A program made the translations under genes and the position numbers. Source: Nocardia iowensis (GTDB lineage Bacteria; Actinomycetota; Actinomycetes; Mycobacteriales; Mycobacteriaceae). Taken from it: a stretch of 64,000 nt of DNA. The notes below the pieces were generated by a model. That model worked only from the letters and a program-made list of their open reading frames with translations, was not told where the DNA came from and did not search any database. The stretch covers positions 3,906,001 through 3,970,000 of the forward strand of contig NZ_CP078145.1 of NCBI RefSeq assembly GCF_019222765.1, read 5' to 3'. Of this stretch, positions 4,586 to 57,685 are shown piece by piece (position 1 is the first letter of the stretch; each line of letters begins with the position of its first letter).

Positions 4586-4691
4586 AGATAACAACTCCTT
4601 CCACAGACGACCGATGACATTGAGGGCGATCGATGGCGAGGGCGTGACACGGCAGGCTGGTCGGGGCGTTAAGAAACCCGCTGCATGCCGA

Positions 4692-6321: not shown

Positions 6322-7530
6322 TCACCGAGCATCGGGTTCGGTGTCTGTGGATCCGGATGGTGTTGACCGTCGGGGTTCGCCCAGGTCTATACCGAGGTCG
6401 GCGGCGCTGTGAAAGCCGCTGCGCGCCAACCGGCGTATCTGCTCCGGGGGGATGCCGACGGTCAGAGACGTCTCCAGCAGCTGAGCCATGGAATGCTCGG
6501 GATCGGCGCGCAGTGCCGCTTCGAAGGCGGTGCCAGCCAGTGGGCCGTCGCCGCGGACGTAGGCGCTGTAGCCGAGCAACGCGGCTGCCTCGGCGCGATC
6601 TGTATCCGAGTGTGCCCGAGTCATGAGCGACCACACGGTTTCGGCCGCCGCAGCGTGCTCGCCGTCCGGGAGCGCGAGCATCGCGTCACGCACCGACCTA
6701 TCACGCAGTGCGACAGCGAGTTCCGCTAGTTCCGGGGCCATCAGCTGCTCGCCGGACTCGACACTGGTGATCTGCCACAGCACATATTCGAGGGCCTGCC
6801 GACTGTAGGCGGTCGGATCACCTCGCCGCACCGCCATGACTTGCCGCACGCGGGCGAGGGCCAGAGCACTGTCCAACAGGGCGGCTACCTGCTGCTGGAG
6901 ATCAGTGTCCTCGGCCACGATGGCGGCCAGTTCGGCACCAGAGCCGCGCATCGGCTTGCTGTCTACCCATACCGATGCGGCCGGATCCGGCAGGCCCCCT
7001 GCTTGTTCGGGCCCGAACAGGGTCCACCAGCACTTCTGTGGCTCGATCGCCTGCACCGCCCAGGCACCCGCGAGGCTAATGTCCTCAGCGGCCAGGTGCC
7101 GGGCCAGGTCGGCGACCAACACCTCGAATCGTCCTGGGCCGCATCGGTCGCCGGCTGACGGCTCCGGCCCGGCGATTCGGTCATCGACCACGACGGCGAG
7201 TACCGCGGTCATGCCATCGTGTGCCGAGACCTGCGCAATACAGCTGGCCACCATGTCCGCTCGCAACTGGACACGACCGCGGTCAGGATCCAGATCGAAC
7301 CGCATCACCGAGTCGACCACCGCGGACTGGTCGTCGCCATGCACCGTGCGCAGAATGAGCGTGACAAGCGAACGCTGTGGCGGGAACCCGATCAGGGCGG
7401 GTATCTCTGCGATCTGTTCTCCCGGATCATTGACCGGCACAATGCTTCGTGCTGCTCGCGGATCTAACGCGGCCGCCGGATCAGCGCAGATGATTTCCTG
7501 CACGGCTGCCTTGATCTCGGGTTCGTTCAT
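6322..7530 (-). CDS. DUF4192 family protein, 402 aa
   Basis: The start ATG at 7530 follows AAGGAAC. After a 50-residue leader the family core appears: IPALIGFPPQRSLVTLILR, VLAVVVDDRIAGPEP, and a helical C-terminal half with the same TPR-like tail as the paralogue at 3521 (LLGYSAYVRGDGPLAGTAFE). Both proteins end with a similar SAADLGIDL segment, showing common ancestry, but their middles differ widely, so this is an old duplication. It is the most upstream gene of the minus-strand array, so the promoter probably lies in 7531-7759. Function unknown. Confidence 0.85.
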   Translation of the reverse strand: MNEPEIKAAVQEIICADPAAALDPRAARSIVPVNDPGEQIAEIPALIGFPPQRSLVTLILRTVHGDDQSAVVDSVMRFDLDPDRGRVQLRADMVASCIAQVSAHDGMTAVLAVVVDDRIAGPEPSAGDRCGPGRFEVLVADLARHLAAEDISLAGAWAVQAIEPQKCWWTLFGPEQAGGLPDPAASVWVDSKPMRGSGAELAAIVAEDTDLQQQVAALLDSALALARVRQVMAVRRGDPTAYSRQALEYVLWQITSVESGEQLMAPELAELAVALRDRSVRDAMLALPDGEHAAAAETVWSLMTRAHSDTDRAEAAALLGYSAYVRGDGPLAGTAFEAALRADPEHSMAQLLETSLTVGIPPEQIRRLARSGFHSAADLGIDLGEPRRSTPSGSTDTEPDAR

Positions 7531-7759
7531 GGCGTGGATGTTCCTTTCGACAGAGCGATGAATGGGTTGATGACGCACAGTCGACGGCCGAGGCACTCAG
7601 GTGGGGTCGTCGATCAAGTCGGGAGGCAGGAAGGGGTGGATTCCATCACCAACAGACGCTGACAGCGAGGTCGCGATTGATCACGGAGGGAGGACGACGG
7701 GATGCCGGTAACCTGATGAATGGGAGAATCAGGTGGACGGCTCGATCAGGAGCGCTGTC

Positions 7760-10482: not shown

Positions 10483-11751
10483 GTGGTAGGCAGGCTGCCC
10501 AAGCCCGTCGGTACCTTCGGCGACGCGTCGAAGCCGAAGAAGCAGAAGAACGGGAGCTGGCGCACGACGGTGCGCTACTACGGAGCGCGAGGTTCCCAGC
10601 AGCTGGAGCGTACGGGGGCCAGCGCCGACGACGCCCGAAACCGTCTGGCGGAGGCCATGCGGGACTTCCGGGAACAGCAAGGGCGGGCCCGGATTACGCG
10701 GACTACGAAGCTGATCGAGCTGGCGGCGGAACTGCTGGTGGAATTGGAGGCCGATCCGGACTACACCGAAGGCAACGTCGAGGACTACCGGCGCGAGATC
10801 TACATCTCGACCGACCGGCGCGCGAATCCCGACACGATCAAGATCGAGAACTCGCTCGGCCATTTACAAGTCTGGCAAGCGACCACTGGCGAGCTCGATC
10901 GTCATCTGAAACATCTTGTTGCCCTGAAGCTTCGGCGCAAGGCAAAGCAGCACAAGATCGTCCTGCGCGCGATGATGGCCATCGCGGTGCGGCACGGAGC
11001 CTTGGACGTCAACCCGATGGATGGCGTCTCGGCGTTCACCCGGCGCAAGAACAAGGCACGCGGCAAAGTCGAGGACCAGCATGCGTTGCCGGCGTTTCGT
11101 GCCCAGGTGCGCGCGTGGGCGCGCGGCGAAGCGGTTCCCGGCACCCCGGCTTACACCTGCGGGCCCGCGCGCGACTGGGTCGTGGTGTGGGTGGTCGACA
11201 TCATCACCGGGACCGGGCTGCGCCCGCACGAAGTGTTCGCGCTGCTGCTCGATGACATCAACCTCGATTGCGAGCATCCCTACCTGGATGTGACGGGCAC
11301 GCTGGTCGAGGTGAAGGGCAAAGGTAAGGGCCGGTGGGTGCGTAAGCCGTTCCCCAAGACCGAGAACGGCTGGCGACGCATCCTGCTGCCCCCGCATTCG
11401 GTGGAATCGATTGCCGAAGCCATCGCATATCTGGAATCCTCGGCGTGCTCCAACCCGATGAGGCTGTTGTTGCCCTCGAGGAAAGGGACAGTGCGCAACC
11501 CGAACAACTTCGGACGGCCATGGCGTGCGGCGCGCGGCGAGAACTTCGCGTGGGTCACGCTGCGGACGTTCCGCCGCGGTGTCGGCACCGAAGTCGACCA
11601 CGCCCACGAGAACCCGGAGCGCGCCGCCAGGCAACTGGGCAACACCACCGCGGTGGCCAAGGCGCACTACATCGACATTCCCGAGACCGTGCCCGACAAC
11701 CGTGACGTCCTGGAGCGCTGGGCCCGGGGACCGAAGGCGGCAAAAGTGTGA
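10483..11751 (+). CDS. int: Site-specific tyrosine recombinase (integrase), 422 aa
   Basis: I chose the GTG at 10483 because GAGGAG lies just upstream; a longer reading from 10408 has no such site. The N-terminal part contains the basic SAM-like core-binding region. The catalytic domain shows Arg I in TGTGLRPHEVFALLL, box II as TLRTFRRGVGT, and the nucleophile Tyr in AKAHYIDI near the C-terminus. Box II has Arg where most family members have His (HxxR), and the later LGH is LGN; the Arg of HxxR is kept. Its end lies 85 bases from the tRNA-Pro 3' end, which should carry the attachment site. It probably catalyses integration and excision of the element. Confidence 0.9.
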   Translation: MVGRLPKPVGTFGDASKPKKQKNGSWRTTVRYYGARGSQQLERTGASADDARNRLAEAMRDFREQQGRARITRTTKLIELAAELLVELEADPDYTEGNVEDYRREIYISTDRRANPDTIKIENSLGHLQVWQATTGELDRHLKHLVALKLRRKAKQHKIVLRAMMAIAVRHGALDVNPMDGVSAFTRRKNKARGKVEDQHALPAFRAQVRAWARGEAVPGTPAYTCGPARDWVVVWVVDIITGTGLRPHEVFALLLDDINLDCEHPYLDVTGTLVEVKGKGKGRWVRKPFPKTENGWRRILLPPHSVESIAEAIAYLESSACSNPMRLLLPSRKGTVRNPNNFGRPWRAARGENFAWVTLRTFRRGVGTEVDHAHENPERAARQLGNTTAVAKAHYIDIPETVPDNRDVLERWARGPKAAKV

Positions 11752-11798
11752 GATTTCTGTGAGATCCCCCTCAAATCGGACCGTCTCCTGAACCGAAA

Positions 11799-11833
11799 AG
11801 ACCCCTTCCGACCCAGGTCGAAAGGGGTTTTTC
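11799..11833. terminator. Bidirectional hairpin terminator between int and tRNA-Pro
   Basis: ACCCCTTCCGAC and GTCGAAAGGGGT pair with one mismatch around a four-base loop and are followed by six T on the plus strand. On the minus strand the tail is CTTTTC. It can end the integrase transcript and the convergent tRNA transcript. Confidence 0.75.
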
Positions 11834-11835
11834 TG

Positions 11836-11909
11836 TCGGGCTGACAGGATTTGAACCTGCGACCACCTGACCCCCAGTCAGGTGCGCTACCAAGCTGCGC
11901 CACAGCCCG
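11836..11909 (-). tRNA. tRNA-Pro(GGG)
   Basis: The minus strand folds as a cloverleaf. The acceptor stem is CGGGCTG/CAGCCCG with discriminator A. The D arm is GCGCAGCTTGGTAGCGC. The anticodon stem CCTGA/TCAGG carries loop CTGGGGG, so the anticodon is GGG and reads CCC (and CCT by wobble). The T arm contains GGTTCAAATCC. The 3' end faces the integrase gene, so the element sits at its 3' end. The gene is intact as it stands. CCA is not encoded. Confidence 0.93.
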
Positions 11910-44231: not shown

Positions 44232-46037
44232 ATGGCACGGATGCGTACCGTCGACGCCGCGGTCCTGATTCTCGAAAAGGAAGGGGCGACACAGGCGTTC
44301 GGCCTACCCGGCGCCGCGATCAACCCCTTCTACAGCGCGATGAAGGCGCACGGCGGCATCAAGCATGTGCTCGCTCGTCACGTCGAGGCCGCCTCGCACA
44401 TGGCCGAGGGCTATACCCGCGCCATCGCGGGCAATATCGGTGTCTGCATCGGTACGTCGGGTCCCGCCGGAACCGACATGATCACCGGCTTGTATTCGGC
44501 GAGCGCGGACTCCATTCCGATCCTGTGCATCACCGGTCAAGCGCCGGTGGCGAAGCTGCACAAGGAGGACTTCCAGGCCGTCGACATCGCCTCGATCGCC
44601 GCGCCGGTGAGCAAGTGGGCGGTCACCGTCCTCGAACCCGCCCAGGTGCCAGGCACCTTTCAGAAGGCGTTCCGGCTGATGCGTGAGGGTCGGCCGGGCC
44701 CGGTTCTGATCGACTTGCCGATCGATGTGCAACTCGCCGAAATCGAGTTCGACATCGAGACATACGAGCCGCTGACGGTGCCCCGCCCCGCCGCGACCAG
44801 GGCGCAGGCGGAGAAGGCCATCGCGATGCTGAACGCGGCCGAGCGGCCGCTGCTGGTCGCCGGTGGCGGCATCGTCAATGCCGATGCCGCGGGCCTGCTC
44901 GTCGAATTCGCCGAGCTGACCGGGGTTCCGGTGGTGCCGACGCTGATGGGCTGGGGCACCATCCCCGACGACCACCAGCTGCACGCGGGCATGGTCGGCC
45001 TGCAGACCTCGCACCGCTACGGCAACGCCACCATGCTCGAGGCCGACTTCGTGCTCGGCATCGGCAACCGGTGGGCCAACCGGCACACCGGCGGCATCGA
45101 AACCTACACCAGGGACCGCACTTTCGTGCACGTCGACATCGAGCCGACGCAGATCGGCCGGGTGTTCGCGCCGGACTTCGGCATCACCTCCGATGCCGGT
45201 GCGGCGCTGGCGGTCTTCCTCGAGGTCGCCCGCGAACTCGCCGCGGCGGGTGAGCTGCCCGACCGCAGCGCCTGGGCCGCGCAGGTGCGGGCGCGAAAGC
45301 AGCTCGGCCAGCGCAAGACCCACTTCGACAACGTGCCGATCAAGCCGCAGCGGGTCTACGAGGAGATGAACCGCGCGTTCGGACCCGACGTCCGCTACGT
45401 CTCCACTATCGGCCTCTCCCAGATCCAGGCGTCGCAGCTGCTGCACGTCTATCGGCCGCGGCACTGGATCAACGCGGGCCAGGCCGGACCGCTCGGCTGG
45501 ACGCTGCCCGCCGCACTCGGCGTCGCGACCGCGGACCCGGATTCGACGGTGGTCGCGCTGTCCGGTGACTACGACTTCCAGTTCCTCATCGAGGAATTGG
45601 CCGTCGGCGCGCAATTCAACATCCCGTATATCCATGTGCTGGTGAACAACTCGTACCTGGGCCTGATCCGTCAGGCGCAGCGCAACTTCGCCATGGACTA
45701 CTACGTGCAGCTCGACTTCGACAACATCAACAGCCCCGAGGTCGGCGGCTACGGTGTCGACCACGTCAAGGTCGCGGAGGGGCTGGGCTGCAAGGCGATT
45801 CGCGTCTTCGAACCGGACCGCATCGGTCAGGCGCTGGAAGATGCGAAGAAGATGATCGTCGAACACCGGGTACCGGTGGTCGTCGAATGCATCCTCGAGC
45901 GGGTGACCAATGTGTCCATGGGCCTGGAGATCGACAACATCGTCGAATTCGAAGAGCTGGCGCTGTCCGCAGCGGACGCGCCGACCGCCACCGTCGCCAT
46001 CGAACCGGAGCCGGAACCGGTAGGAGGCGGCAGGTGA
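44232..46037 (+). CDS. gcl: Glyoxylate carboligase (tartronate-semialdehyde synthase), 601 aa
   Basis: ATG at 44232 follows AAGGAG. A ThDP enzyme with all three domains: N-terminal PYR ([20 protein letters not shown]), central domain ([20 protein letters not shown]) and C-terminal PP domain with the ThDP motif [19 protein letters not shown] and [15 protein letters not shown]. In the PYR domain the catalytic Glu of most ThDP enzymes is replaced by Val (HVEAAS instead of HExAA), which is the hallmark of glyoxylate carboligase. It condenses two glyoxylate to tartronate semialdehyde with loss of CO2. FAD binding is expected as in E. coli. Confidence 0.94.
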
Positions 46038-47215
46038 GCGGGCCGGACGCTCCGTTCTCGAGCGAACTGCGCGGCGGGTGGCGTGACGGACACTGCGTCG
46101 TCGCCCCCGACAAGTTCAAGGGGTCGCTGACCGCGCCTCAGGTCGCCGCGCATATCGCGGCCGGACTCCGCCGGGTCCGCCCGGACGTCCCCGTCGTCAC
46201 CATGCCGGTGGCCGACGGCGGCGACGGCACCGTCGACGCGGTGGTGGAGTCGGGCTTCGTCCGCTTCCAGACGAGCGTCACCGGTCCACTGGGATTGCCG
46301 GTGGCGGCCTCGTTCGCGATGCGGGGCGAAGCGGCCGTGATCGAGCTCGCGGAAGCGTCCGGCCTGCGTCGGCTGCCGATTCGGCCGACATTCCAAACCG
46401 CCATGACCGCAACCAGTTACGGCACCGGCGAGCTGATCCGGGCGGCGGCCACCCGCGGCGCCCGGCGGGTGGTGCTCGGTCTCGGCGGTAGTGCGTGCAC
46501 GGACGGGGGAGTGGGCATGATGTCCGCGCTCGGGGTCCGCTTCCTCGACGAGCACGATCGCGAGCTGGCGCCGGGTGGTGCGGCGTTGAGCCGGTTGGCC
46601 CGCATCGACGCCAGTGACATGCTGCAGGTGCCGGTGATCGTCGCCTCCGACGTCGACAACCCGCTGCTCGGCCCGCGCGGCGCCGCGCAGGTCTACGGGC
46701 CGCAGAAGGGGGCCCGCCCGGGCGATATCGACGAATTGGAATGGGGCCTCGCACGTTTGGCCTCGATCGTCGAACGCGACCTCGGCGCCGAGGTCGCCGA
46801 ACGGCCCGGCGCCGGTGCCGCGGGCGGGGTCGGCTACGCCGCGCTCGCCTTCCTCGGCGCGACCGTGCGGCCCGGCATCGAGATCATCCTCGAACTGATG
46901 TCCTTCGCCGAGCAGATCGAGGGGGCGCGGCTGGTGATCACCGGCGAAGGCTCCCTCGATCCGCAGACCCTGCACGGCAAAGCGCCGGTCGGGGTCGCGC
47001 GGGCCGCGGCAGGCGCTACCGTGCCGGTCGTGGCGGTGGCGGGGCAGCGCTCGCTCACCGGCGAGCAGCTGCGCCGCGCGCACATCGAGCAGGCGTACGC
47101 GCTGACCGACCTCGAACCGGACCCCGAGGTGTGCATCGCGAACGCCGGACCCCTGTTGGAACGGCTGTCCGGTGAGATCGCCGGGGCCTGGCTGGGAGCG
47201 AGCGCTCATGCATGA
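46034..47215 (+). CDS. glxK: Glycerate kinase (GlxK/GarK family), 393 aa
   Basis: A GTG at 46034 follows GGAGGCGG and overlaps the gcl stop. [64 protein letters not shown] and [18 protein letters not shown] are the full motif set of the GlxK family. It phosphorylates D-glycerate to 2- or 3-phosphoglycerate, ending the glyoxylate branch. A second family member is at 54145-55278 in the tartrate operon. Confidence 0.94.
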
Positions 47216-48533
47216 TCTGGTCATCCGGTCCCGGCGGGTCGCTCTGCCGGATGGAATTCGCGCGGCTTCGATTGCCGTGCGGGACGGCAAGATTGCCGCG
47301 CTGGCCGACTACGAGGCCGTGCTGCCCGCGGCGGCGACCACCGACCTCGCGGACCTGGTCGTGCTGCCCGGCCTGGTGGATTCGCACGTGCACGTCAACG
47401 AGCCGGGGCGGACCGAGTGGGAGGGTTTCGCCACGGCGACCAAGGCGGCCGCGGCCGGCGGGGTGACGACGATCGTCGACATGCCGCTCAACTCGCTGCC
47501 GCCGACGGTCACCGTGCCGCATTTGGAGACCAAGCGGTCTGTTGCGGATGGGCAGTGCTACGTGGATGTCGCCTTCTGGGGTGGTGCGATTCCGGGCAAT
47601 CTGGCGTCGCTGCGACCGTTGCGCGAGGCGGGTGTGGTCGGCTTCAAATGCTTCCTCTCGCCGTCCGGGGTGGAGGAATTTCCGCCGCTCGGGCTCGGCG
47701 AGGTGGAGGCGGTGATGCGCGAGCTCGCGGCGTTCGACGGACTGCTCGTCGTACATGCCGAAGATCCGGTGCGGCTGCACGATCCGGTCGACGGGTCCTA
47801 TCGCGCGTTCCTCGATTCGCGCCCGGGGGAGGCGGAAAAGGCTGCGGTGCAAGAGGTTATCGCGCTCGCCGAAGCTACCGGCGTGCGTGCGCACATCCTG
47901 CATGTCTCGGCGGCGGCCTGTCTCGGACCGCTGGCCGAGGCGCAGGCGCGTGGCGTGCGGATCACCGCGGAGACCTGCCCACACTATCTGACCCTCTCGG
48001 CCGCCGAAGCGTCGTCCACGGCATTCAAGTGCTGCCCGCCGATTCGCGACGCGGGCAATCAGGACGCGCTGTGGCAGGGCCTGGCCGACGGCGTGCTGTC
48101 GTGCGTGGTCTCCGATCATTCGCCGTGCACGCCCGACTTGAAAGAGGGCGATTTCGCGACCGCCTGGGGTGGTATCTCATCGCTGCAGATCGGGTTGCCC
48201 GCCGTGTGGACCGCCGCCGCCGAGCGCGGGTTCCGGCTGACCGATGTCGTCCGGTGGATGGCCGCCGCGCCCGCCGAGCTGGCCGGGTTGCCGAACAAGG
48301 GCCGGATCGCGATCGGCTGCGATGCGGACCTGGTCGCCTTCGATCCGTGGGCGCCGATCACCGTCGATCCCGGCGCGCTGGCCCACAAGAATCCGATCAC
48401 GCCCTATGGCGGGCGTGAACTCCGCGGTCTGGTCCACGCCACCTGGCTGCGCGGCCGGGTCGTCGGCAACGGCCACCCGCCCGCGGGCAGCCTCATCTCC
48501 GTGCGGCACAACCGACAAGGAAACCATGTCTGA
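47208..48533 (+). CDS. allB: Allantoinase, 441 aa
   Basis: An amidohydrolase of the dihydroorotase/allantoinase group: LPGLVDSHVHVNEPGRTEWE (metal HxH), the carbamylated Lys in VGFKCFLSPSG, HAEDPVRLHDP, HILHVSAAACLG, and SDHSPCTPDLKEGDF with the metal Asp. The EGF...G and the SPCTP pattern is that of allantoinases. It opens S-allantoin to allantoate. It overlaps the kinase gene by eight bases and the allantoicase gene by eight bases. Confidence 0.94.
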   Translation: MHDLVIRSRRVALPDGIRAASIAVRDGKIAALADYEAVLPAAATTDLADLVVLPGLVDSHVHVNEPGRTEWEGFATATKAAAAGGVTTIVDMPLNSLPPTVTVPHLETKRSVADGQCYVDVAFWGGAIPGNLASLRPLREAGVVGFKCFLSPSGVEEFPPLGLGEVEAVMRELAAFDGLLVVHAEDPVRLHDPVDGSYRAFLDSRPGEAEKAAVQEVIALAEATGVRAHILHVSAAACLGPLAEAQARGVRITAETCPHYLTLSAAEASSTAFKCCPPIRDAGNQDALWQGLADGVLSCVVSDHSPCTPDLKEGDFATAWGGISSLQIGLPAVWTAAAERGFRLTDVVRWMAAAPAELAGLPNKGRIAIGCDADLVAFDPWAPITVDPGALAHKNPITPYGGRELRGLVHATWLRGRVVGNGHPPAGSLISVRHNRQGNHV

Positions 48534-49542
48534 CTTCACCAGCCTGCCCGATCTAGCGCTGCGCACCAACCGCGCGGGCGTGATCGCCGCGAGCGACGAA
48601 TCGTTCGAAGAACGCGAAAACCTCATCAACCCTTGGGAACCCCGCTTCGCGGCGCACACCTTCGGCCCCAAGGGGCAGGAGTACGACGGCTGGGAAACCC
48701 GCCGCCATCGCGGTCCCGGCCACGACTGGGCCATTGTCCGGCTCGGCATGCCCGGCGTGATCCGCGGCGTCGTCATCGACACGGCCTGGTTCAAGGGCAA
48801 TTATCCGCCCTTCACCTCGGTCGAAGCCTGCCGCGCTCCCGGCTATCCGTCACCGGCCCAACTGGATTCGGCCGATTGGGTGGAGATCGTGCCGCGCAGC
48901 GCCCTCGGCGGCGACGCGAAACACGAGCTCCCCGTCTCCGACGACCGCATCTTCACCCACGTACGCCTGAACATCTACCCCGACGGCGGTGTCGCCCGGC
49001 TCCGCGTGCATGGCGAGGTAGTACCGGACCCGACCCTGCTCACCGGTCTCACCGTCGACCTGGCCGCGCTCGAGAACGGTGCGCGAACCGTCGCCTGCTC
49101 CAACATGTTCTACTCCGCCCCCGACAACATGCTCGCCCCTGGTCTCGCCCGCAACCAAGCCGAAGGCTGGGAAACCGCCCGCCGCCGTGACAACGGAAAC
49201 GACTGGGCCGTCATCCAACTCGCCGCCCAAGGCGTCCCCGCCCTGATCGAACTCGACACCACCAACCTGCTCTTCAACGCCCCCGGCGAAACCCGCCTCC
49301 TGGCCATCGATCACCAAGGCCCAGAACCCCTCCCGCCCACCGACGCCCCCGACTGGTTCGAGCTCCTGCCCCGAACAACCCTGCAACCCGACACCCCCCA
49401 CCGCTTCCGCCTAACCCCCACCGCCCGCCCCGCCACCCACATCCGCGTCGACATCTACCCCGACGGCGGCATAGCCCGCCTCCGCCTCCTCGGCACCCTA
49501 ACCCCCGCAGCCGAGCGCGACCTGAACTCGCGCTGGCTATAG
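48526..49542 (+). CDS. alc: Allantoicase, 338 aa
   Basis: ATG at 48526 follows ACAAGGAAACC. Two tandem galactose-binding-like (jelly-roll) repeats: FTSLPDLALRTNRAGVIAAS, DGWETRRHRGPGHDWAIVRL, IYPDGGVARLRVHG in the first, and WETARRRDNGNDWAVIQLA, IYPDGGIARLRLLG in the second. It splits allantoate into S-ureidoglycolate and urea. It is the last gene of the cluster; there is no ureidoglycolate lyase after it. It converges with the helicase gene (48-base gap). Confidence 0.93.
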   Translation: MSDFTSLPDLALRTNRAGVIAASDESFEERENLINPWEPRFAAHTFGPKGQEYDGWETRRHRGPGHDWAIVRLGMPGVIRGVVIDTAWFKGNYPPFTSVEACRAPGYPSPAQLDSADWVEIVPRSALGGDAKHELPVSDDRIFTHVRLNIYPDGGVARLRVHGEVVPDPTLLTGLTVDLAALENGARTVACSNMFYSAPDNMLAPGLARNQAEGWETARRRDNGNDWAVIQLAAQGVPALIELDTTNLLFNAPGETRLLAIDHQGPEPLPPTDAPDWFELLPRTTLQPDTPHRFRLTPTARPATHIRVDIYPDGGIARLRLLGTLTPAAERDLNSRWL

Positions 49543-49590
49543 GACCTTTTACCAGTGGTGGGAAGTCTGTGCTCGGCCACTCAGCCAGCT

Positions 49591-51543
49591 TCAGTCTTCG
49601 ATCAGTCCGACCCAGATGTAGTCGCGGGCGCGAGTGAGAGCAACCATGGTTTGTCGAGCGGCAAGGTCCGCTCGGTCCCGCTCGCCGTCCGTGAGTTGGT
49701 CGGCGGTCTTTGTCGGAATCTCGGTCGTGTGGAAGACCGCTGCGAAGTCCATTCCCTTGGCTCGGTGAACGGTGCCGACCTTTACTGCGTCCTGGTGGGA
49801 GCCGTCATATTTGTCCAGCGGCATGACACTGATTCCAGCGCGAGCGAGAACTGTCATATAGCGCTCGGCTTCTCTGTTCGTCATGGTGATCACCGCGATG
49901 TCGGACCAAGGGACGCGGGAACCAGTGATTGCTTCCACCAGCTTTGCCCCGACTTCTTTGCGGCGGACGGGTTCTGCGGCGGCGTAGCCACCGGGCAAGA
50001 CGATCTCGGTGTCCCGTAACACGAAGCCCGGTTCCCCGTCGAGGTCGTCGACGGTGTTGCTGGCGTCGATGCGCTTGGCGTAGTCGTGCACGGCTGAGCG
50101 GTTGCGGTAGTTGACGCGCAACACTGCCCCGCGTCCCTTGATAGGAATGCCGGCATCGGACAGCCGCCAGCCGCCGGGGTACACCTGCTGTTGGCCGTCC
50201 CCGACAAGGAGTAGTGGAGCGTCAGCTCGCCCTCCGGCGATGCGGTGGACTAGTCGGAGTTCCATCAGGGTGAAATCCTGGACCTCGTCGACCACGACCA
50301 GCCCGAAGGGTTCGTCCAGCGGGTGGGCATCCAGTTCTTCGATCGCCTTGGCGATGATGTCGTTGAAGTCGTGCGCATCGCGCTCTTGCAGGCGTTGCCG
50401 GTAGGGCTGGTACAGCTGCTTCCAAACGGTTTCGCGGCGTGCTCCGTCGAGACGGATTCGATTGCGGCCGGTGCGGTCGATGCGCTTGTACTCGTCGAGC
50501 GTAGTGATGCCACGTCCTTTGATCACGCGGTCGATCTCTTCCCGCCAGTAGGACGGGCTAGCTTCGATAGTGCCGACAACTCGCCGTGCTGTCTGCCAGG
50601 TCCGGCTGAACGCGTCTTCGGCTGCCGTGGTGTTGAGGGTGAATGCGACATCGCGGTCCTTGAGAAACCGAGTAGTCCAAGCATGTAGCCCGACGAACGC
50701 GGCCCGGTCGGCTGCGAGCGGGGCCAGCCGCAGGAACCCCGAGCGATGGTAGCCAGGAAGGGTTTTGACGAAGCTGGTGAACAGCAGCGGACCAGGATTA
50801 TTTTTCGCGAATCGGGCCATTCGATGCAGTGCGACAACCGTCTTACCTGTTCCAGCCGGCCCGCTCAACCTCGCCGGGCCGTTGAAGTTTCGGTGTACGA
50901 GATCGAGTTGGTCGTCATCGAGAAAGGTCATCCACTCCTGGAATGGTCTGGCCAAAATCTTGGTGCGCTTGCTTTCGTGCAGCTCAGCTGTGGCAAAGAG
51001 CCCCTCGGCGGAGACCGGTTCGGCTGCCGGGGCATTGTCGGTGGAAATCAGTGTGTATCTGCGGCTGCGGCCAGCCAACTCCGTAGCGATGTAGCGAGCA
51101 TGTTTGGGTGATAGCCCGGTCTCCTGCGCCAGGAGTGTCCGGCGCATCGTGATCGGATCTACGGCCAGGAAGCGCTCCTGCACACCGGTGTTGACTGCCT
51201 GCTCCATGAGCAGCATCACCTCGAGCATATGCGGGACGTACTTGCGGCGACCGTACGTGACTCCCGCGATGGCTTCTTCTGCTTTTGTCCGTATCCGGCT
51301 CAGGTGAGTCGTCTCGGGAATGGCGTCGACGAACACAAGTGCGAATACGCCACTCGGACCGATGGCGAACCCTGCTGGACGATCCTGTGGCGGAAACGGT
51401 ATGCCACTATCGATGAGGAGGTGCCACCGGGACTCCATTGGCGGGACCGACAGGAACAGGCGGTGTTTGGCGGTCAGTCCAGGCAGCCTGGCGAGCTGCT
51501 GCTCGACCCAAGCGCGACGCCGTTCGCGATTGATATCACTCAT
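49591..51543 (-). CDS. SF1 (UvrD/Rep-like) helicase with NERD-like N-terminal region, 650 aa
   Basis: The ATG at 51543 follows AGGGGAAC. Helicase motifs in order: Q-motif LDDDQLDLV, Walker A GPAGTGKT (about 228-235), Walker B VVVDEVQDF (about 416-424), motif III LLLVGDGQQQVYPGG, motif IV RVNYRNRSA, motif V VGTVHRAKGMDFAAVF, motif VI MVALTRARDYIWVG. An N-terminal region (GFAIGPSGVFALVFVDA) resembles the NERD/PD-like fold of some defence helicases but lacks a clear nuclease triad. No 2B-like large insert. Codon use and lower GC differ somewhat from neighbours. It is divergent from the HEPN-motif gene and may form an antiphage system with it. An alternative role in housekeeping DNA repair is less likely given the setting. 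Confidence 0.88.
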   Translation of the reverse strand: MSDINRERRRAWVEQQLARLPGLTAKHRLFLSVPPMESRWHLLIDSGIPFPPQDRPAGFAIGPSGVFALVFVDAIPETTHLSRIRTKAEEAIAGVTYGRRKYVPHMLEVMLLMEQAVNTGVQERFLAVDPITMRRTLLAQETGLSPKHARYIATELAGRSRRYTLISTDNAPAAEPVSAEGLFATAELHESKRTKILARPFQEWMTFLDDDQLDLVHRNFNGPARLSGPAGTGKTVVALHRMARFAKNNPGPLLFTSFVKTLPGYHRSGFLRLAPLAADRAAFVGLHAWTTRFLKDRDVAFTLNTTAAEDAFSRTWQTARRVVGTIEASPSYWREEIDRVIKGRGITTLDEYKRIDRTGRNRIRLDGARRETVWKQLYQPYRQRLQERDAHDFNDIIAKAIEELDAHPLDEPFGLVVVDEVQDFTLMELRLVHRIAGGRADAPLLLVGDGQQQVYPGGWRLSDAGIPIKGRGAVLRVNYRNRSAVHDYAKRIDASNTVDDLDGEPGFVLRDTEIVLPGGYAAAEPVRRKEVGAKLVEAITGSRVPWSDIAVITMTNREAERYMTVLARAGISVMPLDKYDGSHQDAVKVGTVHRAKGMDFAAVFHTTEIPTKTADQLTDGERDRADLAARQTMVALTRARDYIWVGLIED

Positions 51544-51710
51544 GAAGTTCCCCCTCATGCCTGGCGGCAACCGACTACAGCGGTCATCGGTCGAACTCAG
51601 CGTAGCTCAGGACGCGCGGGACGATCGTGAATTACACTCCGTGACAGTCTGATTCAACATGTGTCCGCACGCTTGGACTGCTGCCGCCGACTCTTGCGGC
51701 AAAGGGGGAT

Positions 51711-53090
51711 GTGGGATTGGCCGACTTGGAAACCTTTGTCGGACAGGTGTGGAGCCCTGACGTCCGATTGCTTGCCGAGGACGCCTGGCGGTGCTACAAC
51801 GCGGGCGCAATCCGCGCCTGCATAGCGGCAACCTGGACAGCTGTCACTGCCGACATCATTACCAAACTTGTCTGGTTGGCAGACGACGGCGACAACAAGG
51901 CGGTGTCCTTCCGGAACAGTATCGCCGCAGCGCAGAGTAAGGGTTTGCAGCGCGATGGGGTGCGCGCGATGCAGAGCATCGAATCGTCCCTGCTTGCCAA
52001 CGCGGTTGAGTTCGAGCTGATCGATTCGATCGGCCTACGCGAGTTGGAGCGTATCCGCGAAGACCGGAACCTGTGTGTCCACCCGTCCTTGCGCACACTG
52101 GACGACGTATATGAGCCCCGACCGGAGGTCGCCCGCGGGCATCTGGCGGTCGCGCTGACCACATTGCTCATTCACCCGCCCGTGCAGGGCCGCAAGGTGG
52201 TGAGTGGGCTGGCTGCATATATAGACGACCCCTCCTTTGTGCCGACCGTTCCGTATATCCAGGCCACATTCTTCGACCGAGTTCGATCGGCAACAAAGCA
52301 GACGATAGTCAACCTTGCGGCGAAGCACGCGGTACTCGAAATCGACACGCCAGGCCAGCTATCTGCCGCGGACTACGCAGACCGCATGGCCGTGGCTCTC
52401 GATGCTTTTGCCCAACGTGACCGAGAATCCGTGCGAGCGGCGGTAGCCAAGCAAAAGGAACGATTTCGGACGCTGGATGGCGCGACGCAGTTGCGCACTC
52501 TTGGGCGTCTCGGTGATCACGACTACTTCTGGAGCTCCGTCGACCGTGCCCTCGCAACGCGGTTGCTCGGCCTGCTCGACGCACCCTCGTCAGTTGCTGA
52601 AGGGCAAGCCTTCCCGCGCGATCTCGCTGCAGGCCTTGCGGTGGTGCGGAGCCGGGACGCACGCGAGGGGTTGCCGGGCTTGGAGCAGCGGTTCGAGGAC
52701 CTGCCATGGATCGACCGTATGGCCGTGGTAATTGCCGCGCGTCCTGATCCATACTTCCTTCCTTCGGTTCTCGAGTTCATCAAGGAAGCGTGGTCGTTCC
52801 GCACGGGCGAACAAGCTGGAAGGCTCCTCATCAAGCACGCTCCATTTTTGACTGTCGACATCCTGGCGACAGCGCTCGAGAACTGGTGCACCAACGTGCA
52901 GTGCCGTCGTGCAAGCGAAATGCCGGAAATCGCAGTACGCCTTCTCCAACATACGGCGCATCTGGGCCAGAGTCGCGCCAAGCCCTTTGCCGAGTTCCTC
53001 TCCGGCGTACAGGAAATGGAAGAAGAGGGTGACTACTACAGTTATCCCGCGCTCGAGGCCGCGCTCGTTACCCACGGATACTTGCGATAG
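51711..53090 (+). CDS. HEPN-motif protein, 459 aa
   Basis: A GTG at 51711 follows AAAGGGGG. The N-terminal 130 residues are helical, with AEDAWRCYNAGAIRACIAAT and ending in the motif RNLCVH (Arg119-x4-His124) within ELERIREDRNLCVHPSLRTL. This matches the R-N-x3-H active site of HEPN ribonucleases. The remaining 330 residues are mostly helical repeats (DFAQRDRESVRAAVAKQKE, LEQRFEDLPWIDRMAVVIA) without a known domain. HEPN proteins of defence systems and toxin-antitoxin modules cut tRNA or mRNA. It is divergent from an SF1 helicase with 167 bases between the start codons, so the two could share regulation. No antitoxin-like gene is adjacent. Family name not known to me. Confidence 0.75.
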   Translation: MGLADLETFVGQVWSPDVRLLAEDAWRCYNAGAIRACIAATWTAVTADIITKLVWLADDGDNKAVSFRNSIAAAQSKGLQRDGVRAMQSIESSLLANAVEFELIDSIGLRELERIREDRNLCVHPSLRTLDDVYEPRPEVARGHLAVALTTLLIHPPVQGRKVVSGLAAYIDDPSFVPTVPYIQATFFDRVRSATKQTIVNLAAKHAVLEIDTPGQLSAADYADRMAVALDAFAQRDRESVRAAVAKQKERFRTLDGATQLRTLGRLGDHDYFWSSVDRALATRLLGLLDAPSSVAEGQAFPRDLAAGLAVVRSRDAREGLPGLEQRFEDLPWIDRMAVVIAARPDPYFLPSVLEFIKEAWSFRTGEQAGRLLIKHAPFLTVDILATALENWCTNVQCRRASEMPEIAVRLLQHTAHLGQSRAKPFAEFLSGVQEMEEEGDYYSYPALEAALVTHGYLR

Positions 53091-53385
53091 GTGTCCAGTA
53101 CGCACGGCTCTGAAGCCGGTCCGCTCCGCGCGGCGGGCAGGGGCACCAACCCTGCCGCCGCGTCGCCTTCGCCGAAGGGAACTCCGCAATGCGCGGGAAT
53201 GCCTGCTGGCCACCGCCTGGTGCAGCTGCTTGGTATGGGTGGCTGAGACTGCCGGACCTGGGCCGCAGTTTGCTTCCGGTACCAGGGCGGCCTGTGGGGC
53301 GACGGGCGCGATAGTGTCCGAACATGTCGACCAGCAGCGTCAGGATGATCAGTGGTTGCGGGGCCGGGTGTGAGCGGGCGTTGCG
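53091..53385 (+). other. 295-bp gap after the HEPN gene
   Basis: No gene I can defend. A 41-codon frame from an ATG at about 53190 has GAAGGGAAC upstream but a composition unlike protein, and a 21-codon frame near 53324 overlaps the methyltransferase start. The promoter of the methyltransferase gene probably lies here. Confidence 0.35.
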
Positions 53386-54132
53386 GTGACTGTTTACGAC
53401 GCGACGGGTCGGACGTATGCGGCGACTAGGCGGCCTGATCCGCGTATCGGCGCAATGATCGATGGTGCGTTGCGTGGTATGGGCACGGTGCTGAATGTTG
53501 GCGCGGGTACCGGTTCGTATGAGCCGGGTCGGACGGTGCTAGCGGTAGAACCTAGTCAGGTGATGATCGGCCAGCGCCCGCCGGGGGCCGCGTCCGCGGT
53601 TCGGGCGACCGCGGAGCACCTGCCGGTTCGCGACGGATCGGTGGACGCGGCCCTTGCGGTGCTCACCATCCACCACTGGTCCGATTTGGCGTGCGGGGTC
53701 GCCGAGATGATCCGAGTTGCCCGGCGCCGCATTGTGATTCTTACCTGGGATCATGCGGTCTTCCGCGAGTTCTGGTTGGTGCGGGACTATCTGCCCGCCG
53801 CGGCGGCGACGGATGCGAAACTTGCTGTCCCGCTGGAGAGACTCACTGTGCTACTGAAAAACCCTGAGATACAACCGGTCCCGGTCCCGCACGACTGCGT
53901 CGACGGCTTCGGGGGCGCGTACTGGCGCAGGCCTGAAGCCTACCTCGATGAAACCGTCCGAGCCGGTATGTCGATGCTGGCCCTGACCGCGAAACACCTA
54001 CTGCAACCAGGCCTGTCGCGGCTACGGCAAGATCTCGAGTCCGGCGCATGGCCCGCTCGCTACGCGGACCTGACCGACCGGCCCGCCCTGGACCTCGGAT
54101 ACCGGCTGGTCACAGCCGATCTCGCGAGCTGA
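53386..54132 (+). CDS. Class I SAM-dependent methyltransferase, 248 aa
   Basis: GTG at 53386. The motif I GTVLNVGAGTGSYEPGRTVL is followed by VEPSQVMIGQRPPGA, AVRATAEHLPVRDGSVDAAL and LTIHHWSDLACGVAEMIRVA, as in UbiE-like Methyltransf_11 enzymes. C-terminal residues CVDGFGGAYWRRPEAYLDE form a substrate cap. Substrate unknown. It lies at the right edge of the accessory island and overlaps nothing of the following glycerate kinase, which is on the other strand. Confidence 0.85.
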   Translation: MTVYDATGRTYAATRRPDPRIGAMIDGALRGMGTVLNVGAGTGSYEPGRTVLAVEPSQVMIGQRPPGAASAVRATAEHLPVRDGSVDAALAVLTIHHWSDLACGVAEMIRVARRRIVILTWDHAVFREFWLVRDYLPAAAATDAKLAVPLERLTVLLKNPEIQPVPVPHDCVDGFGGAYWRRPEAYLDETVRAGMSMLALTAKHLLQPGLSRLRQDLESGAWPARYADLTDRPALDLGYRLVTADLAS

Positions 54133-54144
54133 GTGAGGAACTCG

Positions 54145-55278
54145 CTACCGCCGACGGCGCACGGGCCTCCCAGCCCGCGTCAAGCCGATCCGGTGGCCGA
54201 TATCGACGAGCAGGTCGGCGGTCAGCGCCGGGTCGCCCGCGGTATCGCGGTCGGTGTAGTCCGACAGCGCGTATATCTCGGCGAACCCTGTGCGAGACCA
54301 ATACTTTCGGGGGATCTCATTGCGCCCTGCCACGGCGACGACCGGGACGGGCCCGGCCCGGCGGGCGACGACCGCGGGTAGCTTGCCGCGCTCGGACTGC
54401 GCATCGAGGCAGCCCTCACCGGTGACGATGAGGTCTGCTTCCGCGCGGTGGCGGTCGAAGTCGAGCAGGTCGAGGAAATACTCGGCACCGGAGGTCATGC
54501 GAGCGCCGAGCAGCATAGCGGCGAACCCGATCCCACCCGCGCTGCCAGCGCCGGGACTGGCGGCGAGGTCGGCGGCTTCGGGAAAACCGTTGCGGGACAA
54601 CACCTCCACCAAGTGATGAAGACCCCGATCGAGCAGATGTATTGCCGTCAGGTCAGCGCCCTTTTGTGGCCCGTACACGGCGGGCGCTCCTTCCGGCCCG
54701 GTCAGCGGATTGGTCACATCACCAGCGACTACCAATCCGACGGAGGAAAGGCATACCGCCCGTGCGACCTCGATCGAAGTGATGTCGAGCAGAGCCCGAC
54801 CGCTCGGCGCCAAGATGCGTCCGGTCTCGTCGATGAAGCGGAACCCCAAGGCGGTGAGCAGACCGATACCTCCGTCGGTGCTCGCACTGCCACCCAGGGC
54901 AAGCACTACACGTCGCGGATCGAGTCGCAGCGCTTGCCGAAGGGCGTGTCCCAGACCGAGACTCGACGCATCGAGCGCATGCATACGCCCGCTGGGCAGG
55001 GTCGCGAGTCCGCAGGTATTCGCGACCTCGACGACGACGGTGTCACCGCGGACCGCCATCCGTGCGCGACGTGGTAACCCCGTCGCCCCCGCGACGGTGA
55101 TCGTCTGACCGGCGAACCCGGCGGCGACGGCGGCATCGACACTGCCGTCGCCGCCGTCCGCGAGCGGAAGCTGCTCACTGTCCACACCGGACCTCGAAAG
55201 ACCAAGGGCGAGATGATGAGCGACCTCGGCTGCGGTCAGGCTTCCCTTGAATTTGTCGGGAGCGACGAGCACCTTCAT
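54145..55278 (-). CDS. Glycerate kinase, second copy, 377 aa
   Basis: ATG at 55278 overlaps the transporter stop (ATGA). [67 protein letters not shown] and VTGEGCLDAQSERGKLPAVV give the full GlxK-family motif set. It shares family with the kinase at 46034 but differs in many positions, so it is an old paralogue. It ends the tartrate operon by turning D-glycerate into phosphoglycerate. Confidence 0.92.
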   Translation of the reverse strand: MKVLVAPDKFKGSLTAAEVAHHLALGLSRSGVDSEQLPLADGGDGSVDAAVAAGFAGQTITVAGATGLPRRARMAVRGDTVVVEVANTCGLATLPSGRMHALDASSLGLGHALRQALRLDPRRVVLALGGSASTDGGIGLLTALGFRFIDETGRILAPSGRALLDITSIEVARAVCLSSVGLVVAGDVTNPLTGPEGAPAVYGPQKGADLTAIHLLDRGLHHLVEVLSRNGFPEAADLAASPGAGSAGGIGFAAMLLGARMTSGAEYFLDLLDFDRHRAEADLIVTGEGCLDAQSERGKLPAVVARRAGPVPVVAVAGRNEIPRKYWSRTGFAEIYALSDYTDRDTAGDPALTADLLVDIGHRIGLTRAGRPVRRRR

Positions 55279-56582
55279 GCTTCCAGCACCCTGATCAACG
55301 CGGCCGCCGAAATGACGGTGGTCACGCCGCCGATCCGGGTCGAGATCTGGGCGAACGGCATCAGATTCATCCGGTTCGAGGCCGAAAGTATCGCCACATC
55401 ACCGGTTCCGCCGAGCCCGCTGTGGCACACGGTGACCAGCGAGGCGTCGACCGGATACATACCGATGGCCCGGCCGACCCAGAACCCGGTGGCCGCCATC
55501 GACAACACGACGGCGACGCAGGCCGCCACGTAACCCACCGAGAGCACGCCGATGATGTTCTTCAGCGGCAGATACAGCATGCCGAGACCGATCATCGTCG
55601 GATAGATGAAGTGTCGCGCGATCACCGTGTACACGCCGCGCACACTGTCCTCGACCACGGTGGGGAAGACCCCGAACAGCTTGCACAGGACCGACATGAT
55701 GATCACCAGCACCGGTGCTGGCAACTCGACAAACCGCTCCAGCAGCGTGGCGAGCACGAAGAGACCGCAGATGATGAGGACGCCGAGTGCGTGGTTGCGG
55801 GTGCGCGCGGTCAGGTCGGGGTGCGGAACCGGAGCCACCGCAGCGGTCTCGGATGCGGGCACCTTCACCAACTGGCCCCCACCGTCGAGCTGTGGTCGGC
55901 GATCACCGAGCCTGCGCAACAGGCCCGCGGTGATCACCGCGGCGATATTCCCGACAATCGCCGCCGGAATGAGCTCCGCGACATAGCTTTCCGGCTGCCC
56001 GCCCAACGCAGACGCGTACGCGGAGGAAAGGGGAATGACGCCTTCGCCGATGCCGCCCCCGATGATCGGGACCACGATGTAGAACAGCGCCCGATGAAAC
56101 CCGTACCCGAATGCCATGGCGACGCCGATCCCCACCGAGACAGCAACGAATGTGCCGAGCACCAGCGGCGGGAAGATGCGGATCAGACCACCGATCATCA
56201 CCTTCCTGCTCATGCCCAGGATGCTGCCGACCACCAAGGTGCAAATGATGAAGTAGAGGAAGTTCGCCTGTTTCATCAAGACGGTGACGGCCGCCAACGT
56301 GTTCGAATTGAACGCCCCGAAGTACACCAGGATCGACGGCACCATCAGACAGACCAACGCCCCACCGCCGATCTTCGAGATCACCGGAAGCCGATTGCCC
56401 AAGGGGCCGAGCAGCATGCCGAGCCCGACGATCACGGCGAGCCCGCCGATCATGTTCTCCGGTATCGCGTCGAAGAGACCTGCGGCGAGCACCCCGGCGG
56501 TCAGGAGTATCGGAACGATCAGCGGGATGCCGTCGAGGGTCGGCAACGTGAACGATCGCTCGGGCCGTGCCTGCAATTTCAT
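55275..56582 (-). CDS. 2-Hydroxycarboxylate transporter (2HCT) family symporter, 435 aa
   Basis: About 11-12 membrane helices with the two family GGxG re-entrant loops: IIGGGIGEGVIPLSSAYASA and CHSGLGGTGDVAILSASNRM followed by NLMPFAQISTRIGG. These are diagnostic of CitS/CimH-type 2HCT proteins, which move citrate, malate or lactate with Na+ or H+. Here it is flanked by tartrate dehydrogenase and glycerate kinase on one coupled transcript, so tartrate or a related 2-hydroxydicarboxylate is the likely substrate (inference). ATG at 56582 overlaps the tartrate dehydrogenase stop. Confidence 0.9.
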   Translation of the reverse strand: MKLQARPERSFTLPTLDGIPLIVPILLTAGVLAAGLFDAIPENMIGGLAVIVGLGMLLGPLGNRLPVISKIGGGALVCLMVPSILVYFGAFNSNTLAAVTVLMKQANFLYFIICTLVVGSILGMSRKVMIGGLIRIFPPLVLGTFVAVSVGIGVAMAFGYGFHRALFYIVVPIIGGGIGEGVIPLSSAYASALGGQPESYVAELIPAAIVGNIAAVITAGLLRRLGDRRPQLDGGGQLVKVPASETAAVAPVPHPDLTARTRNHALGVLIICGLFVLATLLERFVELPAPVLVIIMSVLCKLFGVFPTVVEDSVRGVYTVIARHFIYPTMIGLGMLYLPLKNIIGVLSVGYVAACVAVVLSMAATGFWVGRAIGMYPVDASLVTVCHSGLGGTGDVAILSASNRMNLMPFAQISTRIGGVTTVISAAALIRVLEA

Positions 56583-57685
56583 GATCGGCTCACGCCGGTC
56601 ATCGATGCTGCGGACGCGAGCTGCGTGCGCACCTGCCCGCCAAGGGATTCCGTCGTTCCGGACCCGCCCATATCGGGCGTCATGGCCGACTTGTCTCGCG
56701 AGAGCACCGTTTCGACGGCGGACAACACGGCGGCCGCGGCGGTGTGTTCGCCCAGATGCTCGAGCATCATCGCCCCGCTCCAGATCTGACCGATCGGATT
56801 GGCGATTCCAAGCCCGGCGATATCGGGAGCAGAGCCGTGCACCGGTTCGAAAAGACTCGGAAACAGTCGTTCGGGGTTGATATTTCCACTCGGTGCGATG
56901 CCGATGGTCCCGGTGCAGGCGGGCCCGAGATCGGAAAGAATGTCGCCGAAAAGATTGCTCGCGACGACCACGTCGAACCAGTCCGGATGCAGGACGAAAT
57001 TGGCCGTCAAAATGTCGATGTGATACTTGTCGACATCGACCTCGGGATAGTTCTGCGCCATCGCGGCGACACGTTCGTCCCAATAGGGCATCGAGATGGA
57101 GATACCGTTGCTCTTGGTCGCCGACGTGAGGTGTTGCTTCGGCCGCCGCCGGGCGAGTTCGAAGGCGTACTTCAGGATTCGATCGACGCCGGTCCTGGTC
57201 ATCACGGTCTCCTGGATCACCGTTTCCCGCTCGGTGCCCTCGAAGATCTTGCCGCCGATGCTCGAGTACTCGCCCTCGGTATTCTCCCTGACCACGTAGA
57301 AATCGACATCACCAGGTAGCCGGCCCGCGAGCGGACTGCTGATACCCGCGAGCAGCCGGACCGGTCGCAAACTCACGTACTGATCGAAGTGCCGCCGGAA
57401 CTGCAACAGACTGCCCCACAGCGAAATGTGGTCCGGGACGGTCTCGGGCCAGCCGACGGCACCGAAGAAGATGGCGTCGAAACCGGCCAGCTCGTCGAAC
57501 CAACCGTCCGGCAGCATTTTTCCGGTGGCGGAATAGTATTCCGCGCTCGCGAAGCCGAACTCGGTGAAATCCAGGGTGAAATCGAATGCGGCCGCTGCGG
57601 CTTCCAGCACTCGAACTCCCTGTGGCACGACTTCTTTGCCGATACCGTCTCCTGGAATGACCGCAATTCGGTGAGTTGCACCCAT
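56579..57685 (-). CDS. ttuC: Tartrate dehydrogenase/decarboxylase (D-malate dehydrogenase family), about 368 aa
   Basis: MGATHRIAVIPGDGIGKEVV opens the isocitrate/isopropylmalate/tartrate dehydrogenase fold. VVRENTEGEYSSIGG, SATKSNGISISMPYWDERV, VASNLFGDILSDLGPACTGTIG and FEPVHGSAPDIAGLGIANPI are family motifs. The overall pattern is that of tartrate/D-malate dehydrogenases (TtuC/DmlA), which decarboxylate meso-tartrate to D-glycerate or oxidise D-malate. I chose ATG 57685; the frame extends to 57763. It heads an operon with transporter and glycerate kinase and is divergent from a LysR regulator. Confidence 0.88.
   Translation of the reverse strand: MGATHRIAVIPGDGIGKEVVPQGVRVLEAAAAAFDFTLDFTEFGFASAEYYSATGKMLPDGWFDELAGFDAIFFGAVGWPETVPDHISLWGSLLQFRRHFDQYVSLRPVRLLAGISSPLAGRLPGDVDFYVVRENTEGEYSSIGGKIFEGTERETVIQETVMTRTGVDRILKYAFELARRRPKQHLTSATKSNGISISMPYWDERVAAMAQNYPEVDVDKYHIDILTANFVLHPDWFDVVVASNLFGDILSDLGPACTGTIGIAPSGNINPERLFPSLFEPVHGSAPDIAGLGIANPIGQIWSGAMMLEHLGEHTAAAAVLSAVETVLSRDKSAMTPDMGGSGTTESLGGQVRTQLASAASMTGVSRS

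Follow-up and report, generated by a model that had tools for sequence, protein, structure and literature searches.

Do two divergent genes of Nocardia iowensis, one for an SF1 helicase and the other for a protein with a HEPN motif, make up an undescribed defence system, as a preliminary description of the locus proposed, or a variant of a system already known? The locus lies in a 64,000-nucleotide stretch of DNA (hereafter the window) from a single-contig genome of 8.95 Mb, and its open reading frames bear out the proposed layout, with genes for 650 and 459 aa standing back to back and 167 bp between their starts. The locus comprises the following features:

49539..53386, no strand: accessory two-gene cassette between the allantoicase and methyltransferase genes, missing in two relatives
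49591..51543, minus strand: SF1 (UvrD-type) helicase, 650 aa from ATG
49594..50925, minus strand: helicase motor core, residues 207-650
50989..51543, minus strand: unassigned alpha/beta domain at the helicase N-terminus, residues 1-185 (AlphaFold2 secondary structure; no Pfam match)
51544..51710, no strand: divergent intergenic region of 167 bp, presumed from the sequence to hold both promoters
51711..53090, plus strand: predicted PD-T7-3/Dandelion-family HEPN protein, 459 aa, GTG start (PADLOC PDLC04108, 8.3e-18; 40-relative profile against PDB 9wxf, 2.5e-41)
51711..52175, plus strand: predicted HEPN domain, residues 1-155 (profile alignment to PDB 9wx2 'Dandelion-hepn', 6.3e-28; structure model)
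52065..52082, plus strand: HEPN motif R119-NLCV-H124, its R and H conserved in aligned homologues
52179..53087, plus strand: HEAT/ARM-like helical solenoid of the HEPN protein, residues 157-459
53386-54132: methyltransferase gene

The cassette and its boundaries

The flanking genes agree with a location between metabolic operons: upstream runs an allantoin/glyoxylate operon with allantoicase as its last gene, and downstream lie genes for the methyltransferase, a glycerate kinase and a 2-hydroxycarboxylate transporter. GC content is 61-62% at 50-53 kb versus 69-73% at 46-49 kb and 66-68% at 53-56 kb; a value of 61% also occurs at 57-58 kb, outside the cassette. We aligned the 46-57 kb region with the best three of 18 genomes that have an allantoicase match among 31 searched. 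In one relative (G080) 95 bp replaces the cassette and joins the window stretches 46468-49538 and 53387-57000, and in a second (G143) the window positions 49545 and 53383 are separated by just 147 bp; the third (G116) retains the allantoicase side alone and is uninformative for this comparison. Since 95 or 147 bp stands in place of ~3.84 kb, it is exactly the helicase and HEPN genes that are absent from these two genomes (loci L179 and L180; the uninformative one is L181). The methyltransferase gene keeps its site in both and thus falls outside the cassette, so that the accessory stretch, first put at 4.5 kb, shrinks to ~3.85 kb (49539-53386). The cassette is therefore one presence/absence unit at the window site, where gain by the window genome and loss by the relatives are both possible. 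By eye, likeness to G080 extends into the ~75 bp ahead of the methyltransferase start, which may place the right end of the cassette near 53310. When each insertion end was scanned by itself, the left yielded no repeats within it and the right one weak palindrome. DNA searches of 30 genomes each established no empty site for the two other direct pairs described below (L007 and L019). G143, empty at the cassette site, has an unpaired helicase elsewhere (L123).

Family, motif and fold of the HEPN protein

The 459-aa protein matches the PADLOC model for PD-T7-3 (PDLC04108) at 8.3e-18 over residues 13-199, its sole other PADLOC match being a weak one to PDC-M02B (0.013); Pfam and NCBIfam returned no match for it. 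The same PD-T7-3 model is matched by 29/29 close relatives and by 40/40 wider aligned relatives, the best of them at 1e-44. A profile of these 40 relatives finds the PDB entry 9wxf, 'Dandelion' (12 chains), at 2.5e-41 and aligns to its residues 12-410; it likewise finds the separately deposited HEPN piece 9wx2 (6.3e-28) and C-terminal piece 9wwz (2.3e-6). How far the likeness extends towards the C-terminus depends on the query: the window protein alone covers residues 13-199, hhalign with the close-relative profile extends to column 314 of 509, and the 40-relative profile runs to position 387 of 447. Identity between the window protein and PD-T7-3/Dandelion is 24.6% over residues 6-202 and 19% over 279 profile columns. 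ORF1 of the P2-EC30 Z-region, found by tblastn, matches the PD-T7-3 model at 3.5e-168 and 9wxf with zero differences over 455 residues, so that PD-T7-3, 'Dandelion' and P2-EC30 Z-region ORF1 are three names tied to one gene family. A near-identical gene is present in 15 of 5426 complete E. coli genomes, and our search found no relevant papers on 'Dandelion'. Judged by its sequence, the window protein is thus a distant member of a known family; the profile match, the 40/40 relatives and the identity of P2-EC30 ORF1 with 9wxf lead us to reject its earlier designation as undescribed. The matches of all 40 relatives to PD-T7-3 at the same time support the defence reading of that description: PD-T7-3 is reported to protect E. 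coli, with a stronger effect on T-even phages than on T7, and to act alone (PMC9519451).

The motif RNLCVH is confirmed in the translation at residues 119-124, and its R and H align with those of RHLSAH in 9wxf. R119 and H124 are kept in 40/40 aligned rows, the locus rows among which were gathered in a scan based in part on the motif; the independent counts are those of 120 listed proteins and 19 genome matches. Both residues are present in 120/120 listed homologues (of 183, the window copy included), 116 of which fit a tight pattern while four differ between R and H. They are also present in 19/19 genome matches examined, where five matches come from genomes also in the motif-using scan, three copies have stops or are fragmented (L079, L081, L084), and three further matches (G001, G081 and G087; E 3.5e-4 to 9.2e-4) are excluded. 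The modelled protein is all-helical at a mean pLDDT of 94.1 and has the large helical C-terminal region first noted from the letters alone; in a fold search residues 157-459 resemble HEAT/ARM solenoids. That search against the PDB listed solenoid proteins with no match at E<=0.001; it barely probed the HEPN half, and 9wxf was not among the matches listed, so its outcome does not weigh against membership in the family. The HEPN assignment is supported instead by the solved homologue, with its piece 'Dandelion-hepn', and by the PADLOC PD-T7-3 matches.

The window protein (459 aa) and PD-T7-3/Dandelion (471 aa; PDLC04108; 9wxf, 9wx2, 9wwz) share a HEPN N-terminus with R-x4-H and a helical C-terminal region, but a helicase adjoins the window copy whereas P2-EC30 ORF1 is the only ORF in its Z-region record. 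A similar architecture is described for BxaP (ORF376, type 3 BREX-associated), with a HEPN-class (DUF4145) N-terminus, a HEAT-like C-terminus and a likely abortive-infection mode; its authors liken it to PD-T7-3 by structure (PMC10799925). Unlike the window protein, which we compared with it by description only, BxaP is located in BREX loci. Tha of S. aureus prophages is likewise described as a HEPN anti-phage RNase with R-x4-H, but it is a 301-aa protein with a C-terminal HEPN domain that tail proteins activate (PMC11087260; again compared by description only). Homologues of the window protein occur on 41 plasmid records. Ten chosen neighbours of distant homologues comprise five that are defence-associated, one DEAD helicase, two conjugation coupling proteins and two without a match, the defence types being DUF6079 with an N6-methyltransferase (L045), GmrSD (L030), an SLFN-g3 helicase (L068) and NACHT-TPR (L033).

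The helicase and its occurrence beside HEPN genes

Pfam PF00580 finds UvrD motifs in the divergent gene product (E=1.1e-17), which upholds its description as a UvrD/Rep-like SF1 helicase with motor motifs that, on sequence, are intact; an upstream TTG at 51570 offers an alternative start and a 659-aa product. The NERD-like N-terminal region once ascribed to it was not confirmed. PF08378 gave no match to three family N-termini in Pfam at E up to 10, the PADLOC candidate C3a187, 'NERD+UvrD' (2.9e-21, matched by 32/32 helicases), aligns from residue 195 onward only, and no D/E-x-K column is conserved in 32 aligned helicases, the window's included; a NERD nuclease is therefore rejected. Among the acidic positions examined, the helix residue E89 is retained in 28/32 helicases. 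Hhalign of the N-terminus with one true NERD sequence returned a probability of 0.1%, and the modelled order of its elements is alpha-beta-beta-beta-alpha-beta. With C3a187 the helicase thus has the UvrD motor in common, while no NERD was found in it. It also matches GajB models (E down to 1.3e-13) and shares their UvrD-type motor, but has its own N-terminal domain, and membership in Gabija is rejected because its neighbours are allantoicase, the HEPN protein, the methyltransferase and glycerate kinase, with no OLD-family GajA. CoCoNuT types II/III are described as loci with an SF1 helicase, joined in most types by a HEPN RNase, but their helicase is UPF1-like and accompanied by a McrB-type GTPase (PMC11090510); the window helicase is of the PF00580 type and no McrB-type GTPase adjoins the cassette, which rejects this assignment as well.

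How often the two genes meet was surveyed in 150 genomes of the genus, where scoring covered part of the candidates in each and copy numbers are thus lower bounds, and in listings of 120 of 183 HEPN proteins and 120 of 2887 and 120 of 928 helicases. The helicase is found in 68 of the 150 genomes at E<=1e-80 and is thus not universal, contrary to what a widespread chromosomal repair gene would show. HEPN matches (E<=0.001) occur in 15; eight of these are almost full-length, though an internal stop interrupts one, and the remaining seven are fragments, distant or marginal. A helicase adjoins the HEPN gene in 3/15, all among the eight: the window, G145 (L007) and G042 (L019). In the other twelve, adjacency is absent within the flanks examined; one contig (G009) ends 178 bp beyond one side of its HEPN gene, where a partner is possible. 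Seen from the helicase, 3 of 78 genus matches are paired and 75 unpaired. Across 70 HEPN loci in named genomes, two, from the same two species (L007, L019), have a helicase within the flanks and 68 do not, nor do 8/8 loci from other genera of the order (1.5-kb flanks); in a phylum sample of 396 genomes the window was the sole HEPN match at E<=1e-90. Three near misses among distant HEPN homologues were not counted: at L042 the neighbouring 725-aa ORF resembles, by eye, housekeeping UvrD, at L051 the neighbour is a 969-aa helicase of a different type, and at L047 an SF1-like ORF lies ~2.5 kb off.

Pairing is concentrated in one Nocardia HEPN subclade, whose 6/6 listed members share a contig with a family helicase, three as direct neighbours and three by inferred contig sharing: P0050/P0147 (both on 26413 bp, Nocardia rhizosphaerihabitans), P0011/P0245 (both 49266 bp, Nocardia sp. 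NPDC127526) and P0021/P0246 (both 43644 bp, shared source). Co-occurrence, the check suggested at the outset, thus extends to all listed members of this subclade, whereas overall pairs are rare. Chance would place a helicase beside three of the eight HEPN genes with a probability of ~2e-9, or ~2e-4 under an assumed 50-fold island enrichment, computed with 77 helicase copies where the genus search gives 78. The direct pairs are divergent in the window (167 bp), convergent in L007 (23 bp) and tandem in L019 (3 bp), and joint transcription is therefore not required. In a 127-row HEPN tree, P0011 and P0021 group with the paired copies in a single clade (support 88); in a tree of 33 chosen rows (26 from the surrounding clade and 7 others) the six pair-bearing copies lie on one side of a branch whose support, 84/80, is too low for the program's star, and the branch of P0050 is long. 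The helicase tree (99 rows) places the six partners in two well-separated groups, window/P0147/L007 and P0241/P0245/P0246, each with unpaired sisters; with partners drawn from two separate helicase subfamilies, the HEPN lineage would have kept the pairing while the partner changed.

Coupled or independent genes

We give an even chance to the reading in which the two genes form an anti-phage cassette that unites a PD-T7-3-type abortive-infection RNase with a helicase as sensor or regulator. A defence role for the cassette is likely, and the coupling of the helicase to it, whether physical or functional, about evenly balanced. The effector would be a protein of the PD-T7-3/Dandelion/BxaP type, with a HEPN RNase at its N-terminus followed by a HEAT-like arm, which probably oligomerises and stays idle before infection, and which on infection would cut RNA and halt the infected cell. 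One Nocardia subclade would have gained an ATP-driven SF1 helicase as partner, whose ligand is most likely a phage-made nucleic acid, with replication or end structures among the candidates, and which would set HEPN activity as either activator or brake. A more specific form, a two-component branch of PD-T7-3 in which a dedicated helicase senses phage DNA or its replication and gates an oligomer of the HEPN-HEAT RNase, with the helicase subfamily swapped at least once and the pairing kept, strikes us as doubtful.

Quite possible, if somewhat short of probable, is that two independent defence-type genes happen to lie in one cassette or hotspot, with the HEPN protein acting alone like PD-T7-3 and the helicase being a separate accessory gene. 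Most examined copies of each gene stand without the other and three of the six pairs are inferred, which speaks against coupling, as does the reported ability of PD-T7-3 and BxaP to protect E. coli on their own (PMC9519451, PMC10799925). The helicase moreover recurs beside diverse genes: among ten neighbours chosen next to helicases or pairs are a type I R subunit, a type ISP enzyme, a GmrSD enzyme, a NERD protein and a PLD-helicase, and also a PucR regulator, a pyruvate dehydrogenase E1, an ESX-type protein and a CBS protein. At four loci (L019, L125, L132, L154) an AAA-TPR-APH gene is either its direct neighbour or one gene away, an arrangement suggestive of a hotspot, and shared hotspots or islands can account for part of the pairing. 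Mixed neighbours, varying orientation and mostly solo copies fit independent island genes; against them stand the pairing of all six listed subclade members (those three inferred pairs among them), its survival of a switch of helicase subfamily, the 3-bp tandem of L019 and the absence of exactly both genes at the window site in two relatives.

It is much less probable that the helicase restrains a HEPN toxin in a toxin-antitoxin-like module that serves the stability of plasmids or islands more than defence against phages, as the commonness of HEPN toxins (PMC9519451) and the 41 plasmid records might suggest. Most homologues examined stand without this helicase, so it is no general antitoxin of the family. 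To our knowledge, moreover, no SF1 helicase acts as an antitoxin. Most improbable of all is a host RNA- or DNA-metabolism pair, since, for all its seat between metabolic operons, the site is empty in two relatives, both genes are patchy in the genus and the HEPN family matches a validated anti-phage protein.

On the preferred reading, an RNase with a helicase sensor or regulator, the cassette is less likely an entirely new system than a local version of a defence protein already known, and what is new is the two-gene arrangement of a PD-T7-3-family HEPN protein with an SF1 helicase. Searches of the open-licence PMC literature brought up, among the matches listed, neither a named HEPN and UvrD two-gene system nor a HEPN defence in Nocardia. 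The cassette is small enough for direct testing, and a branch with a helicase partner offers a handle on the triggering of PD-T7-3-type HEPN proteins: should the helicase prove to be the sensor, a comparison of solo and paired members would reveal the role of the HEAT arm.

Phage-borne and BREX-like settings of the HEPN family

The PD-T7-3 model matches ORF1 of the Z region of the phage P2-EC30 (AJ512676; locus L206), which, judged by its sequence, is the 'Dandelion' protein of the PDB and whose product is labelled hypothetical in the 10 E. coli genomes listed among its matches.

L206:364-1779, P2-EC30 Z-region ORF1

At L045, the locus of a distant homologue, Pfam assignments made for this locus alone place a DUF6079 gene and an N6-methyltransferase gene on either side of the PD-T7-3-like HEPN gene, a layout (L045:6129-14121) that is type 3 BREX-like, with the DUF6079 protein BrxC/PglY-like. 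By gene length alone, L039, L052, L057 and L035 resemble it, the Pfam scan having covered L045 only.

Surroundings of the cassette and of the helicase family

Glycerate kinases of one Pfam family, encoded on opposite strands, flank the cassette on both sides, and further genes lie towards the window's start:

3521-4705 and 6322-7596, two DUF4192 genes
10483-11909, recombinase-like ORF (judged by eye) beside tRNA-Pro
45887-47215, glycerate kinase 1, strand opposite to kinase 2
54145-55278, glycerate kinase 2, strand opposite to kinase 1

The DUF4192 genes and the recombinase-like ORF, for which a Pfam scan returned no match, possibly mark a mobile element there.

Four genomes of the genus (G045, G046 at L129, G047 and G049) carry two divergent helicase-family paralogues separated by 1.2-1.6 kb. 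Elsewhere, members of one protein family are encoded next to the helicase or one gene away (L019, L125, L132 and L154); a scan of the L019 copy showed AAA, TPR and APH-type kinase domains. The family's recurrence may reflect an insertion hotspot.
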